Source of the DNA: Chloroflexota bacterium
GTDB lineage: Bacteria; Chloroflexota; JAHJIN01
DNA: 64,000 nt
Assembly (NCBI GenBank): GCA_018823415.1
Contig: JAHJIN010000457.1
Coordinates: 1-64,000 of the forward strand
Direction of reading: 5' to 3'
Position numbers and translations under genes: made by a program. Shown here piece after piece: positions 13,111 to 53,845 of the stretch. Every line of letters begins with the position of its first letter. The stretch's first letter is position 1. Under the pieces are notes generated by a model that made no database searches, was not told the origin of the DNA, and was given only the letters and a program-made list of their open reading frames with translations.

Positions 13111-13538
13111 CCATGGAAATCTCTCGACATTGGCGGTTGAATTCTCAGCGCTACGTGCTGGGTGGCGTCGAATGCTCCGGCTGCGGGACTCGCTACTTTC
13201 CCCCGCGCCCCCTGTGCCCGCGCTGCGGGTCACGGCTGATGCAGCCGGCCAACTTTATCGGCAACGGGCTGGGCGAGGTCTATTCGTACTCGGTGGTGCA
13301 CGACGCGCCGGCCGGCTATGGCGACCATGCCCCGTACCCGGTGGCCCTGGTCCGGCTGGATGATGGCCCCGTCATCACGGCCCAGCTTACCGACGTGGAC
13401 CCGGAGAACGTGCAGATCGGCATGCGGGTAGAGATGGTGACCCGGCGTATCAAAGAAGACGGCGACCGTGGCCTCATCAACTATGGCTACAAGTTCCGGC
13501 CCATGCTGAACCCGGCCCGTGTCGAAGTACCCGCGTAG
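13107..13538 (+). CDS. DUF35 zinc-ribbon/OB-fold acyl-CoA-associated protein
   Basis: A 143-residue protein hidden inside a longer shadow frame in the track. Its N-terminal rubredoxin-like zinc ribbon has four cysteines (ECSGCG and LCPRCG), followed by an OB-fold with GEVYSYSVVHDAPAGY and PYPVALVRLDDG. In archaea, DUF35 proteins bridge acetoacetyl-CoA thiolase and HMG-CoA synthase and share their CoA-binding channel. This gene overlaps the thiolase-like gene by ATGA, preserving that gene pair. Its TAG stop lies inside a 27-bp palindrome. Confidence 0.93.
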   Translation: MTMEISRHWRLNSQRYVLGGVECSGCGTRYFPPRPLCPRCGSRLMQPANFIGNGLGEVYSYSVVHDAPAGYGDHAPYPVALVRLDDGPVITAQLTDVDPENVQIGMRVEMVTRRIKEDGDRGLINYGYKFRPMLNPARVEVPA

Positions 13539-13561
13539 ACCAAGTTGCCAACTTGGTCTAC
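13535..13561. repeat. 27-bp palindrome overlapping the DUF35 stop codon (family P, copy 1)
   Basis: Arm GTAGACCAAGTTG, one central base, then the exact reverse complement of the arm. The DUF35 TAG stop is bases 2-4 of the arm. A second copy with compensating base changes lies at 52375-52405. There is no U-tract. Confidence 0.8.
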
Positions 13562-49105: not shown

Positions 49106-49366
49106 ATGGCCTTGCCTAGCTTTGTACGGAACGGGATCATCAAAGTCGCCAAGCAGGACGTTTTGGACTTTTTGGACGAATACGAAGAAGAACTCGTCCG
49201 GTATTTCCTGGAAGAGGTTCAGGTGCTAGATGACCGCATGGACGAGGAGCGGCTATTCATCGACATCCGCATGACCGCGTTGGGAGAAGAGTTGCTGCGG
49301 GCCGTCCTGCGGGCCCTTCGGCGCTTTATTGTCGATTTTGGCGAGGCCGATAAGGACGAGGATTGA
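49106..49366 (+). CDS. Conserved-looking small acidic protein, unknown function
   Basis: An 86-residue soluble protein, mostly helical and acidic ([40 protein letters not shown], ending FGEADKDED). GGAGG lies five bases before ATG 49106, and an extended -10 promoter is upstream, so it is likely expressed. It precedes menG by 7 bp and may be co-translated. No domain recognised; it does not look like a toxin or antitoxin. Confidence 0.75.
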
Positions 49367-49373
49367 CAGACGC

Positions 49374-50096
49374 ATGAGCAGTTCTTTACCGACCGGCGGG
49401 CTATCGCCCCGGGATCCGTCGCGGGCCCCCTCGCGCATCCGGGGTTTTTTCACCAGCATTGTGCGCCGCTATGATCGCATCAACCGGGTGATGAGCCTGG
49501 GGATGGACCTGGGCTGGCGCGAGGCGGCAGCGGACGAGGTGGCCGGCGCGCCGCCCGGCCTGGTGCTGGATGTGGGTGTGGGGACCGGCGACCTGGCGCT
49601 GGCCGTCTCCCGGCGTGGTCGCTGCATCGTGGGGGTCGATTTTTGCCGGCCCATGCTGCAAGCGGCCCGACCCAAGGTGGCAGACGTGTCCGTGGCCCTG
49701 GTGGAGGGCGACGCGTTGGCGCTGCCGGTGCCCGATGCCTCGTACGCGGCGGTGATGGCCGGGTTCTCGCTGCGCAACGTGGCCGACCTGGACCGGGCGC
49801 TATGCGAGGCGTATCGGGTGACACGGCCCGGGGGCCGGTTCGTGAGCCTGGAGATGTGCCCGCCCCGGCGCTGGCGCTGGGCGCACTGGCTCTATCAGCA
49901 GGTGGCGATGCCGGTCCTGGGCGCGTGTTTTGGCGGAGCCGTGTCGGCCTATCGCTACCTCCCGGTGTCCATCCAGACGTTCCCTGACGCCGAGGGGCTG
50001 GTCCAGCGCATGGAGGCGGCCGGCTGGTGGCAGGTGCGCTATCGGACCCTGGGCCTGGGGGCTGTGGCGGTGCACGTGGCGACAAGACCTCATTGA
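49374..50096 (+). CDS. menG: UbiE/MenG-type demethylquinone methyltransferase
   Basis: A class I SAM methyltransferase of 240 residues. The UbiE pattern is FFTSIVRRYDRINRVMSLGMDLGWRE, then the SAM site VLDVGVGTGDLALAVS, and VMAGFSLRNVADLDRAL. It methylates the ring of a demethyl-menaquinone (or ubiquinone) precursor. Start is ATG 49374; the track's 49329 is in the preceding gene. Its end overlaps the convergent polyprenyl-diphosphate synthase gene by 7 bp. Confidence 0.9.
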   Translation: MSSSLPTGGLSPRDPSRAPSRIRGFFTSIVRRYDRINRVMSLGMDLGWREAAADEVAGAPPGLVLDVGVGTGDLALAVSRRGRCIVGVDFCRPMLQAARPKVADVSVALVEGDALALPVPDASYAAVMAGFSLRNVADLDRALCEAYRVTRPGGRFVSLEMCPPRRWRWAHWLYQQVAMPVLGACFGGAVSAYRYLPVSIQTFPDAEGLVQRMEAAGWWQVRYRTLGLGAVAVHVATRPH

Positions 50097-51061
50097 CTTC
50101 TCGCCAGCGCATAGTCGACCAGGGACCACAATACCTGCCGGGCGTCATTGTCGGGCAGCGTGGTCAGTGCGGCCTGGCTGCGCCGGGCGTGGTCGCGGGC
50201 TTCTGTTAAGGCCAATTCGATGGCGCCGGACTGGCAAATGACCGCGCTGGCGGCGCGCACGTGGGCCGTGCAGCGCTGGCCGGCCAGCACGGCGCGGACC
50301 GGGTCATCGGCCCCGGCCTGTTCCAGGTGGTAGATGATGGGCAGGGTGATGAGACCCTGGCGCAAATCGCTGCCGACCGGCTTGCCCAGCCGGTCCTGAT
50401 CGCCCACCAGGTCCAGCACGTCATCCACGATCTGGTAGGCCAGGCCCAGTTCGCGCCCGAAAGCATCCAGGGCTGCGAGTTGCGCGTCGCTGGCCCCGGC
50501 CAGCAGCCCGGCCATCTCGGCTGATGCGGCCAGGAACGCGGCCGTCTTGGCCTCGATGCGTCGGACATATTCCTCGCGGTTGCCAGACTGACTCTGCGCG
50601 GTGACTGACTGGCGGATCTCCCCGGCGCACATGGCCCGCAGCACGCCGGCATAGACCTGGAGGAGGCGCGGTTGCCCCAGGTCGGCTATCAGCGCGATAG
50701 ACTGGGCCAGCAAATAGTCGCCGGCCAGGACGGTGGCCCCGGTGGGCCAGACGGTGTGCAGCGTGTGGCGGCCCCGACGTTCAGCCGCGTCGTCCACCAC
50801 ATCGTCATGGATGAGCGTGGCGGCGTGCAGTAGGTCCAGGGCCGCGGCCAGGCGATAGACTGACGTCAGCGGGGCGCCCATCATGTGCCCGGCCAGGACC
50901 GCCAGCGCGGGCCGCAGTTGCTTGCCGCCACTCACCGCGTGGCGGAGTGCCGTGCCCAGCGGCTCGGTCGCGTCGGCCAGCGCGTCCTGGGTGACGCGCT
51001 CTACCTGCGCCAGTTCCGGGCGAATGGGTTCCAACAAGTCATCGAGTAACAAGGTGCTCAT
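50090..51061 (-). CDS. Polyprenyl diphosphate synthase (trans)
   Basis: A 323-residue trans-isoprenyl synthase with the two Asp-rich motifs LIHDDVVDDA and YQIVDDVLDLVGD, plus GGKQLRPALAVLAGHM. It elongates allylic diphosphates with isopentenyl diphosphate to the quinone side chain (octaprenyl/nonaprenyl type by similarity; chain length not readable). It begins at ATG 51061, overlapping the radical SAM stop (ATGA), and is tail-to-tail with menG. Confidence 0.93.
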   Translation of the reverse strand: MSTLLLDDLLEPIRPELAQVERVTQDALADATEPLGTALRHAVSGGKQLRPALAVLAGHMMGAPLTSVYRLAAALDLLHAATLIHDDVVDDAAERRGRHTLHTVWPTGATVLAGDYLLAQSIALIADLGQPRLLQVYAGVLRAMCAGEIRQSVTAQSQSGNREEYVRRIEAKTAAFLAASAEMAGLLAGASDAQLAALDAFGRELGLAYQIVDDVLDLVGDQDRLGKPVGSDLRQGLITLPIIYHLEQAGADDPVRAVLAGQRCTAHVRAASAVICQSGAIELALTEARDHARRSQAALTTLPDNDARQVLWSLVDYALARSQ

Positions 51062-52353
51062 CCGATTTCTGGTGCCTGGGCGACCTCCGGGGTTTTGCGA
51101 GCCTCGGAGGTCTGTTCCTGGTTGGCATGGATAAAGCACGAGGGGTCTTCGGCCAGAAGGTTGCCGGTGACGGCCAGTGTCCGGCCCCGGCAGCCGCCGC
51201 ACAGCTTGCGATACTCGCACTCGCCGCAGCGTCCTTGCAGCCGGTGCTCCCGGTCTCGCAGGTCCTGGAAAATGGGGGCATCGGCCCAGATGGTTTTGAA
51301 CGGTGTCTCGCGCACGTTGCCGCAGGGCACCTCGATAAAGGGGCAGGGCCAGACCTCGCCGTTGGGCTTTATGTATACAAAGCCGCGCCCGGCCGAGCAG
51401 CCGTGAAAGACGGTTTCCGCCAACCGCAGGAGCGGACCACCCCGGATGCCGTTTTGCTGGAGCAGGAAAGGCCAGTATTGCGGCCCGGCCACCGGCTCCA
51501 TGATGGCCTGCGACACGCGCTGCGCCTGGGCCATAAAGCGGATCAGCCGTTCGTTGGCCCCCAGGTCCAGGGCAGCTTGTTCGATGGCGTGGCCCCGGCC
51601 CACCGGCACCAGTTGGTACATGATGAGGATAGCCGTCCCCAGCTCGTCCAGCAGGCCCATCAGCGACTCTAACTGGTCCAGGTTGTATTCCATGGCCGTG
51701 ATGTTGATGTGCAGCGGGATACCGGCCCGGCGCAGGGCTTCGATACCCCGTAGCGCTGCGTCGAACGCGCCGGGCTGGTTGCGCACGTAATCGTGCGTGG
51801 CGGCGTCAAACCCGTCCAGGCTCACCGCCCCGATGGCGACTCCGTAGCGACGCAGGTCCCGGGCCACCGCGTCGTCGATGAGGGTGGCGTTGGTGGCGAT
51901 GGTGTTGGTAAAGCCCAGCGCTTGTGAGTAGGCCAACAGCTCCATCAGGTCGCCGCGCATCAGCGGCTCGCCGCCGGTGTAGGCCATCATGCGAAACTCG
52001 CTCACCTCGGCCAGTTGGTCAAAGAGACGCTTGGCCTCCTGGGTGGTGAGTTCGTCCGGCGAGCGCTGGCCGCCGGAGGTGTGACAGTGGATGCAGCGCA
52101 GGTTACAGGCCGCCGTCATCTCCCAGACCGGGTGCGCCGGAAAGCCGATGCAGCCCTGGCCCCGGGACCCGGCCGCGCCGGGGATGCACTTGACGCCATA
52201 GTTGACCGCCCAATAGGGTAACTGGCGCCAGCGCACCAGCGCACTCATGTACAGCGCGCTTCCAAGCTGTCGCAGCAGCAGGCTCGGCGGCCACCAATAG
52301 GTCCGCACCTTGCGCGCGGGGCGCTCACCCCATTCCGATAGCCAATCGTTCAT
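51058..52353 (-). CDS. Radical SAM protein with SPASM domain in the quinone cluster
   Basis: A 431-residue radical SAM enzyme: the cluster motif is CNLRCIHCHT, with YTGGEPLMRGD. A SPASM/auxiliary-cluster region has CPFIEVPCGNVRETPF, CGECEYRKLCGGCRG and CFIHAN. It resembles the AhbC/NirJ/PqqE-like group. An N-terminal about 75 residues with hydrophobic helices may associate with the membrane. Substrate unknown. Its coupling to polyprenyl-diphosphate synthase (ATGA) and position next to UbiA suggest quinone or prenylated-cofactor metabolism, which is inference. Confidence 0.88.
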   Translation of the reverse strand: MNDWLSEWGERPARKVRTYWWPPSLLLRQLGSALYMSALVRWRQLPYWAVNYGVKCIPGAAGSRGQGCIGFPAHPVWEMTAACNLRCIHCHTSGGQRSPDELTTQEAKRLFDQLAEVSEFRMMAYTGGEPLMRGDLMELLAYSQALGFTNTIATNATLIDDAVARDLRRYGVAIGAVSLDGFDAATHDYVRNQPGAFDAALRGIEALRRAGIPLHINITAMEYNLDQLESLMGLLDELGTAILIMYQLVPVGRGHAIEQAALDLGANERLIRFMAQAQRVSQAIMEPVAGPQYWPFLLQQNGIRGGPLLRLAETVFHGCSAGRGFVYIKPNGEVWPCPFIEVPCGNVRETPFKTIWADAPIFQDLRDREHRLQGRCGECEYRKLCGGCRGRTLAVTGNLLAEDPSCFIHANQEQTSEARKTPEVAQAPEIG

Positions 52354-52374
52354 GCAGCCTCACAGATAGAATGT

Positions 52375-52405
52375 ACGTAGGTCAAGTTGGCAACTTGACC
52401 TACGT
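52375..52405. repeat. 31-bp palindrome overlapping the UbiA-gene stop codon (family P, copy 2)
   Basis: Arms ACGTAGGTCAAGTTG and CAACTTGACCTACGT around a single base. Relative to copy 1 (13535-13561) the arm differs at two positions, and both are compensated in the other arm. The UbiA TAG stop lies inside. Confidence 0.8.
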
Positions 52406-53470: not shown

Positions 53471-53845
53471 ATGAAGGATTCGCGACGACCGGGAACCGAG
53501 TTGCTGATGGAACTGGGCGCCTTTGCGATTTTGGTCGCCTCTGTCTCGCTGTTGTGGAGAGACAACCTGCTGCTGTTCATTGTGATGCTGATCGAATGTC
53601 CCATCGCGTTGATCCTGTGGCACGACCGGCTCACCGTCTGCTTTTTTCTCATCATCGGCGTGCTGGGCACCCTGGCGGAAGGGGTATTCATCCAGTTTGG
53701 CGTCTGGCAGTATAACAATCCCACCTTCCTGGGCGTGCCCCTGTGGTTCCCGTTGGCCTTTGGCACTACCGGTCTCATCGGGAGCCGGCTGGCCCAGACG
53801 CTTGTCGCCATCTGGGATCGAGTCAGCCCACCGACGACCGGCTAA
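53471..53845 (+). CDS. Small integral membrane protein, unknown
   Basis: A 124-residue protein with four hydrophobic helices (ELGAFAILVASVSLLW, LLFIVMLIECPIALILWH, CFFLIIGVLGTLAEGVFI, PLWFPLAFGTTGLIG). It has a WQYNNPTFLGVPLWFP loop similar to that seen in DUF2878-like membrane proteins. GGAG lies upstream of ATG 53471. Own promoter. No catalytic motif. Confidence 0.7.
   Translation: MKDSRRPGTELLMELGAFAILVASVSLLWRDNLLLFIVMLIECPIALILWHDRLTVCFFLIIGVLGTLAEGVFIQFGVWQYNNPTFLGVPLWFPLAFGTTGLIGSRLAQTLVAIWDRVSPPTTG

Follow-up and report, generated by a model that had tools for sequence, protein, structure and literature searches.

Most SPASM enzymes modify peptides. MftC, the mycofactocin maturase, catalyzes the oxidative decarboxylation of a tyrosine, and oxidative decarboxylation is also the chemistry of AhbD, an enzyme of heme b synthesis. 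A lasting partnership between a SPASM enzyme and a UbiA prenyltransferase would give this enzyme class a kind of task new to it, and a search of the open-access literature returned no description of a module composed of UbiA and a radical SAM/SPASM enzyme. The window, by which we mean the whole 64,000-nucleotide stretch of Chloroflexota DNA that was analysed, contains such a pair in the following arrangement:

49106-49366: ORF of 86 aa directly upstream of the UbiE gene, with no Pfam or NCBIfam match
49374-50096, plus strand: UbiE/MenG-family methyltransferase (TIGR01934, 188.9 bits; cut-off 158.35)
50090-51061, minus strand: polyprenyl diphosphate synthase, 323 aa, ATGA-coupled to the radical SAM gene
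51058-52353, minus strand: radical SAM/SPASM enzyme, 431 aa, an ATG to TGA ORF recognized by its Pfam matches and orthologs
52374-52404, no strand: palindrome of 31 bp between the UbiA and radical SAM genes, taking in the UbiA stop codon
52400-53323, minus strand: MenA-like UbiA prenyltransferase, 307 aa (PF01040, 9e-25), with EYWDxxxD and DxxxD intact
53471-53845, plus strand: membrane protein, 124 aa, of a family without assignment, divergent from the UbiA gene

An earlier note, made from the letters of this DNA, had called a radical SAM-SPASM gene at 51058-52353, coupled by ATGA to a polyprenyl-diphosphate synthase gene, beside a UbiA gene and with a convergent UbiE gene, and each of these calls holds. 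The 431-aa protein matches Radical_SAM (PF04055, 5e-27) and SPASM (PF13186, 2.4e-11) and aligns over nearly its full length with 23 orthologs. Its TGA (51060-51058) overlaps the ATG of the synthase gene (51061-51059), giving ATGA at 51058-51061; the UbiA gene ends 46 bp upstream of the radical SAM gene, and the UbiE gene, whose product scores above the TIGR01934 cut-off, converges with the synthase gene such that the gene ends overlap by 7 bp. The cluster motif CX3CX2C (C83/C87/C90) and the SPASM cysteines C319, C337, C376, C379, C385, and C388 are invariant in all 24 aligned sequences, C406 is present in 23 of 24 (the sole gap being a row cut by a contig end), and C68 is an additional invariant cysteine of the family. 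With CX3CX2C and the SPASM cysteine pattern in place, the protein is a member of the radical SAM/SPASM enzymes. Its predicted structure (mean pLDDT 82.6) shows two N-terminal helices at residues 23-40 and 45-60; nearly every aligned ortholog shares the hydrophobic character of the first, and this conserved helix suggests that the enzyme works at the membrane. Foldseek matches of the model (PqqE, SuiB, SkfB, and BlsE) reflect general SPASM folds only. The palindrome between the two genes, not a known component of the module, is predicted to form a stable hairpin (RNA fold z-score -3.9); a second palindrome of the same family (TAGxxCAAGTTGNCAACTTGxxCTA) lies at 13535-13561, the two differ by compensatory arm changes, and none is expected by chance in shuffles.

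The radical SAM protein belongs to a distinct SPASM family of its own, which is apparently undescribed. It reaches the cut-off of none of the 25 best NCBIfam models: AhbD (TIGR04545) comes closest with 303.6 bits against 500, NirJ2 gives 274 against 500, TIGR04053 264 against 395, MftC 175 against 265, and PqqE 119.5 against 381, with the NirJ, NirJ1, NirJ2, and AhbC models together spanning 187-274 bits against cut-offs of 500-650. In a tree that took in representatives of AhbC, AhbD, NirJ, NirJ1, NirJ2, TIGR04053, TIGR04347, and MftC, PqqE sequences being left out, the proteins of the module form a single clade of 26 rows, including two more Chloroflexota sequences, with support of 100/99, and this clade sits outside all of these families. 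Membership in NirJ, TIGR04053, TIGR04347, and MftC was rejected on cut-offs and tree, and membership in the PqqE family, which is absent from the tree, on its score under the cut-off. The family is further marked by the motifs GMGCIGFP ahead of the cluster motif, YQLVPVGRG, EPVAGPQYW, and YIKPNGEVWPCPF.

The 23 orthologs from our genome scan share 48-83% identity; a 24th match, a 35% relative, was not counted among them. Carriers comprise Anaerolineae and other Chloroflexota, WOR-3 (five closed chromosomes), Elusimicrobia, Auribacterota, Kapabacteria, and 'Dehalococcoides' JdFR-56, as well as MAGs called Bathyarchaeota, Hermodarchaeota, and Methanomicrobia. Matches at E<=1e-120 occur in 3/400 genomes of the Chloroflexota sample and in 13/147 genomes of the phylum to which WOR-3 genome G055 belongs, and the module is therefore an accessory trait. 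The archaeal sequences nest among those of Chloroflexota and WOR-3 in the tree. In two of the archaeal loci the GC content of the module tracks that of its contig (48/45% in L040 and 47/43% in L048), unlike in the Anaerolineae locus L036 (64/61%), so that plain contamination with Anaerolineae DNA is not obvious there; in archaeal locus L037, module GC is 10 points above the contig. Given the nesting in the tree, transfer or misbinning may account for the archaeal loci.

Wherever the flanks of an ortholog locus are intact (22 of 22), as well as in the window, the gene directly upstream of the radical SAM gene encodes UbiA, and the two genes are usually within about 15 bases of each other. The 23rd ortholog locus, L031, begins at a contig edge, and the UbiA gene of its genome lies at the edge of another contig. 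Within the phylum of G055, the two genes do not adjoin in four of the 13 genomes with a radical SAM match, the UbiA-subfamily match and the radical SAM gene being located on different contigs in G457, G462, and G465, and no UbiA partner being detected in genome G456, perhaps owing to MAG incompleteness. At a threshold of 270 bits, chosen after seeing the gap from 270 to 189 bits, a profile of the UbiA subfamily (A2) recognizes 15 of 16 radical SAM-positive genomes, 11 of the 16 having built the profile or being close kin of its builders (G457, G462, and G465 did not), and none of 40 radical SAM-negative genomes, the best of which scores 189 bits (Fisher p = 1e-12, with kinship ignored, related genomes being non-independent trials). 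The distance matrices of UbiA and the radical SAM enzyme correlate with r = 0.91, a value reached in 0 of 2000 permutations and to which shared descent contributes. In the UbiA tree, the module proteins form a clade of 24 rows (support 98/99) on the side of E. coli MenA (support 96/88), and the UbiA of the window remains under all MenA cut-offs (best 74.9 bits against 264; TIGR00751, 48.1 against 102.15). These data show that the radical SAM enzyme and one MenA-like UbiA subfamily are inherited together, whether their genes adjoin or are unlinked, and that a polyprenyl-diphosphate synthase of their own often accompanies them. The tie to prenyl metabolism drawn in the earlier note thus holds across phyla, given the 22 upstream UbiA genes and the co-occurrence with the UbiA profile.

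Other neighbors are less constant. In most Anaerolineae and in all seven WOR-3 loci, the synthase gene comes immediately after the radical SAM gene; in the loci from Elusimicrobia, Kapabacteria, Auribacterota, and JdFR-56, it does not adjoin the pair. Homologs of the 124-aa membrane protein (51-61% identical) are present at 6 other module loci, their genes being divergent from and adjoining UbiA in five of the 6 (six of seven with the window); the protein has only a weak resemblance to DUF817/DUF2878, and its predicted model has a pLDDT of 71. None of the other 23 loci showed a UbiE gene beside the module, and UbiE probably does not belong to its core; as it adjoins the module in the window only, we rejected it as a member. 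Beyond the module genes, the neighbors in the window (TrmD, a glycosyltransferase, and a class I aldolase, judged by eye from translations) look unrelated. The label 'prenyl-quinone cluster' that had been given to this locus is therefore an inference.

Individual loci display settings of their own. The Elusimicrobia UBA5214 locus (L050, 4220-13141) has the order selA-ubiA-rSAM-selB with MoaB and MOSC genes upstream; this setting is absent from the other loci examined, and a role in selenium or molybdenum metabolism was rejected on these grounds. In Chloroflexota loci L100 and L101, a gene for a SAM hydroxide adenosyltransferase (SAM hydrolase) lies ahead of the module's UbiA and radical SAM genes, and on another contig of JdFR-56 (L102) such a gene precedes a different UbiA-UbiE pair. 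L100 further contains a second UbiA gene and a TIGR04190-family B12/radical SAM gene downstream. Neither the SAM hydroxide adenosyltransferase nor the TIGR04190 neighbors were seen at other loci examined.

On balance, and by a modest lean, we read the radical SAM gene as one half of a two-enzyme module consisting of UbiA and a radical SAM/SPASM enzyme. We likewise give slightly better than even odds to the proposal that the SPASM enzyme, associated with the membrane, carries out an oxidative alteration of the head group on a prenylated aromatic lipid that its UbiA produces. The polyprenyl-diphosphate synthase would make the prenyl chain, which UbiA would attach to an aromatic head group. Seated on the membrane via its N-terminal hydrophobic helices, the radical SAM enzyme would cleave SAM, and the resulting 5'-deoxyadenosyl radical would abstract a hydrogen of the head group, with an electron passing to the SPASM auxiliary cluster(s). 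The outcome would be an oxidative change, such as decarboxylation or desaturation of a side chain or a new ring bond, comparable to the reactions that AhbD and MftC catalyze; it is because of the kinship to these two enzymes that we infer oxidative chemistry. The pathway would yield a prenylated compound anchored in the membrane of anaerobes in which no known menaquinone route was found, and the enzyme could act before or after prenylation.

Acting before prenylation, the radical SAM enzyme might make or trim a soluble head group, whose product UbiA then prenylates. PqqE and BlsE, SPASM relatives with soluble substrates, are among the closest folds, and the gene order with UbiA first does not settle the order of reactions; however, the conserved hydrophobic N-terminal helix suggests membrane work, and we consider this course of events rather unlikely. 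We find it very unlikely that the enzyme is a RiPP maturase whose peptide is prenylated too, even though its closest folds are mostly peptide-modifying enzymes and peptides are what most SPASM enzymes act on. The WOR-3 genes are packed, leaving no room for a precursor peptide between them, no conserved small precursor-like ORF appears among the conserved neighbor families, for which ORFs of at least 70 aa were clustered, and, along with scores under the MftC and PqqE cut-offs, a precursor peptide gene was not seen nearby. Hardly credible is a variant heme b synthase of the AhbD type, with UbiA serving as a heme prenyltransferase. AhbD is the nearest NCBIfam model, but the score stays under the TIGR04545 cut-off, EPVAGPQYW replaces KPT(C/D)APHY, and the window UbiA does not match the heme O synthase model. 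The earlier note had suggested phylogeny and conserved neighborhood as checks, and both speak against a heme enzyme: the radical SAM proteins form their own clade outside AhbD and the other heme enzymes (PqqE not in the tree), and the conserved neighbors are UbiA and the polyprenyl synthase, with no conserved heme-pathway neighbors. Moreover, JdFR-56 (G063) encodes a separate AhbC/AhbD-like pair elsewhere in its genome and an Elusimicrobia genome (G060) a separate AhbD-like gene close to hemL, hemB, and hemD, the AhbC/AhbD-like proteins of both genomes branching outside the module clade; in seven WOR-3 carriers, the AhbD model at E<=1e-50 recovered the module enzyme and no second AhbC/AhbD-like gene. 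Heme b synthase was rejected on the cut-off, the tree, and the separate AhbD-like paralogs in two carriers.

The proposal of an uncharacterised ring or tail modification, also made in the earlier note, is still our best guess when applied to a prenylated compound, whereas the findings do not support a (mena)quinone enzyme. Its specific form, in which the ring or tail of a respiratory (mena)quinone is modified and UbiE acts as a later methylase, is unlikely in our judgment. The window genome (G000; L093, G000:C538:5282-6223, G000:C544:4915-5868) does have UbiE over cut-off next door and two NrfD-like genes for quinone-linked proteins, the module UbiA is the sole MenA-like one found in it, and five other carriers (G043, G048, G049, G062, and G063) share with it both UbiE and NrfD. 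Yet MenB exceeds its cut-off in 0/24 carriers (7/14 in control genomes), PF02621 (MqnA/MqnD) is found in 1/24, and cytochrome bd in 0/24; UbiE over cut-off and NrfD each occur in 7/26 (the 24 and two more), most carriers having neither, and UbiE adjacency is confined to the window. G000 itself has neither MenB over cut-off nor MqnA/MqnD. These tests address marker genes (MenB, PF02621, cytochrome bd, UbiE, and NrfD), not whole pathways, and by them a menaquinone pathway, taken as MenB or MqnA plus MqnD, was not found in nearly all carriers. All UbiE/NrfD carriers but G062 have neither of the markers for the two known menaquinone routes, and their quinone-linked genes could reflect salvage, an unknown route, or MAG gaps. 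The remaining carriers, closed WOR-3 chromosomes included, show no sign of quinone use by these markers.

The partnership of UbiA and the radical SAM enzyme suggests that uncultured anaerobes make a prenylated compound not yet described. A more specific version, which we regard as possible though doubtful, puts the module in an unknown route to a new prenylated redox lipid, a quinone- or phenazine-like electron carrier of the membrane whose redox-active head group the SPASM enzyme would build; its placement in anaerobic bacteria and archaea without both known menaquinone pathways is equally tentative. If redox-active, the compound would join a short list of known membrane electron carriers and would explain genomes with quinone-linked genes but without a known quinone route.

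Among described systems, the DHNA prenyltransferase MenA is close to the module UbiA, which groups on the side of E. coli MenA in the UbiA tree but differs in scoring under the TIGR00751 cut-off and in residing in genomes without MenB over cut-off and, in nearly all cases, without MqnA/D. AhbD (TIGR04545), the best sequence model for the radical SAM enzyme, likewise unites radical SAM and SPASM with CX2CX5CX2C; in contrast to AhbD, the module enzyme has a different pocket stretch at EPVAGPQYW, an N-terminal extension of about 75 residues, and UbiA instead of heme neighbors. TIGR04053, NirJ2, and the NirJ/AhbC families share a common broad SPASM group with it, at roughly 30-37% identity over the core, yet they form separate clades, and the GCIGFP and PQYW motifs are specific to the module enzyme. 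MftC is a SPASM enzyme as well, but has a peptide as its substrate and works with MftA/MftB, and the enzyme of the module scores under its cut-off and falls outside it in the tree.
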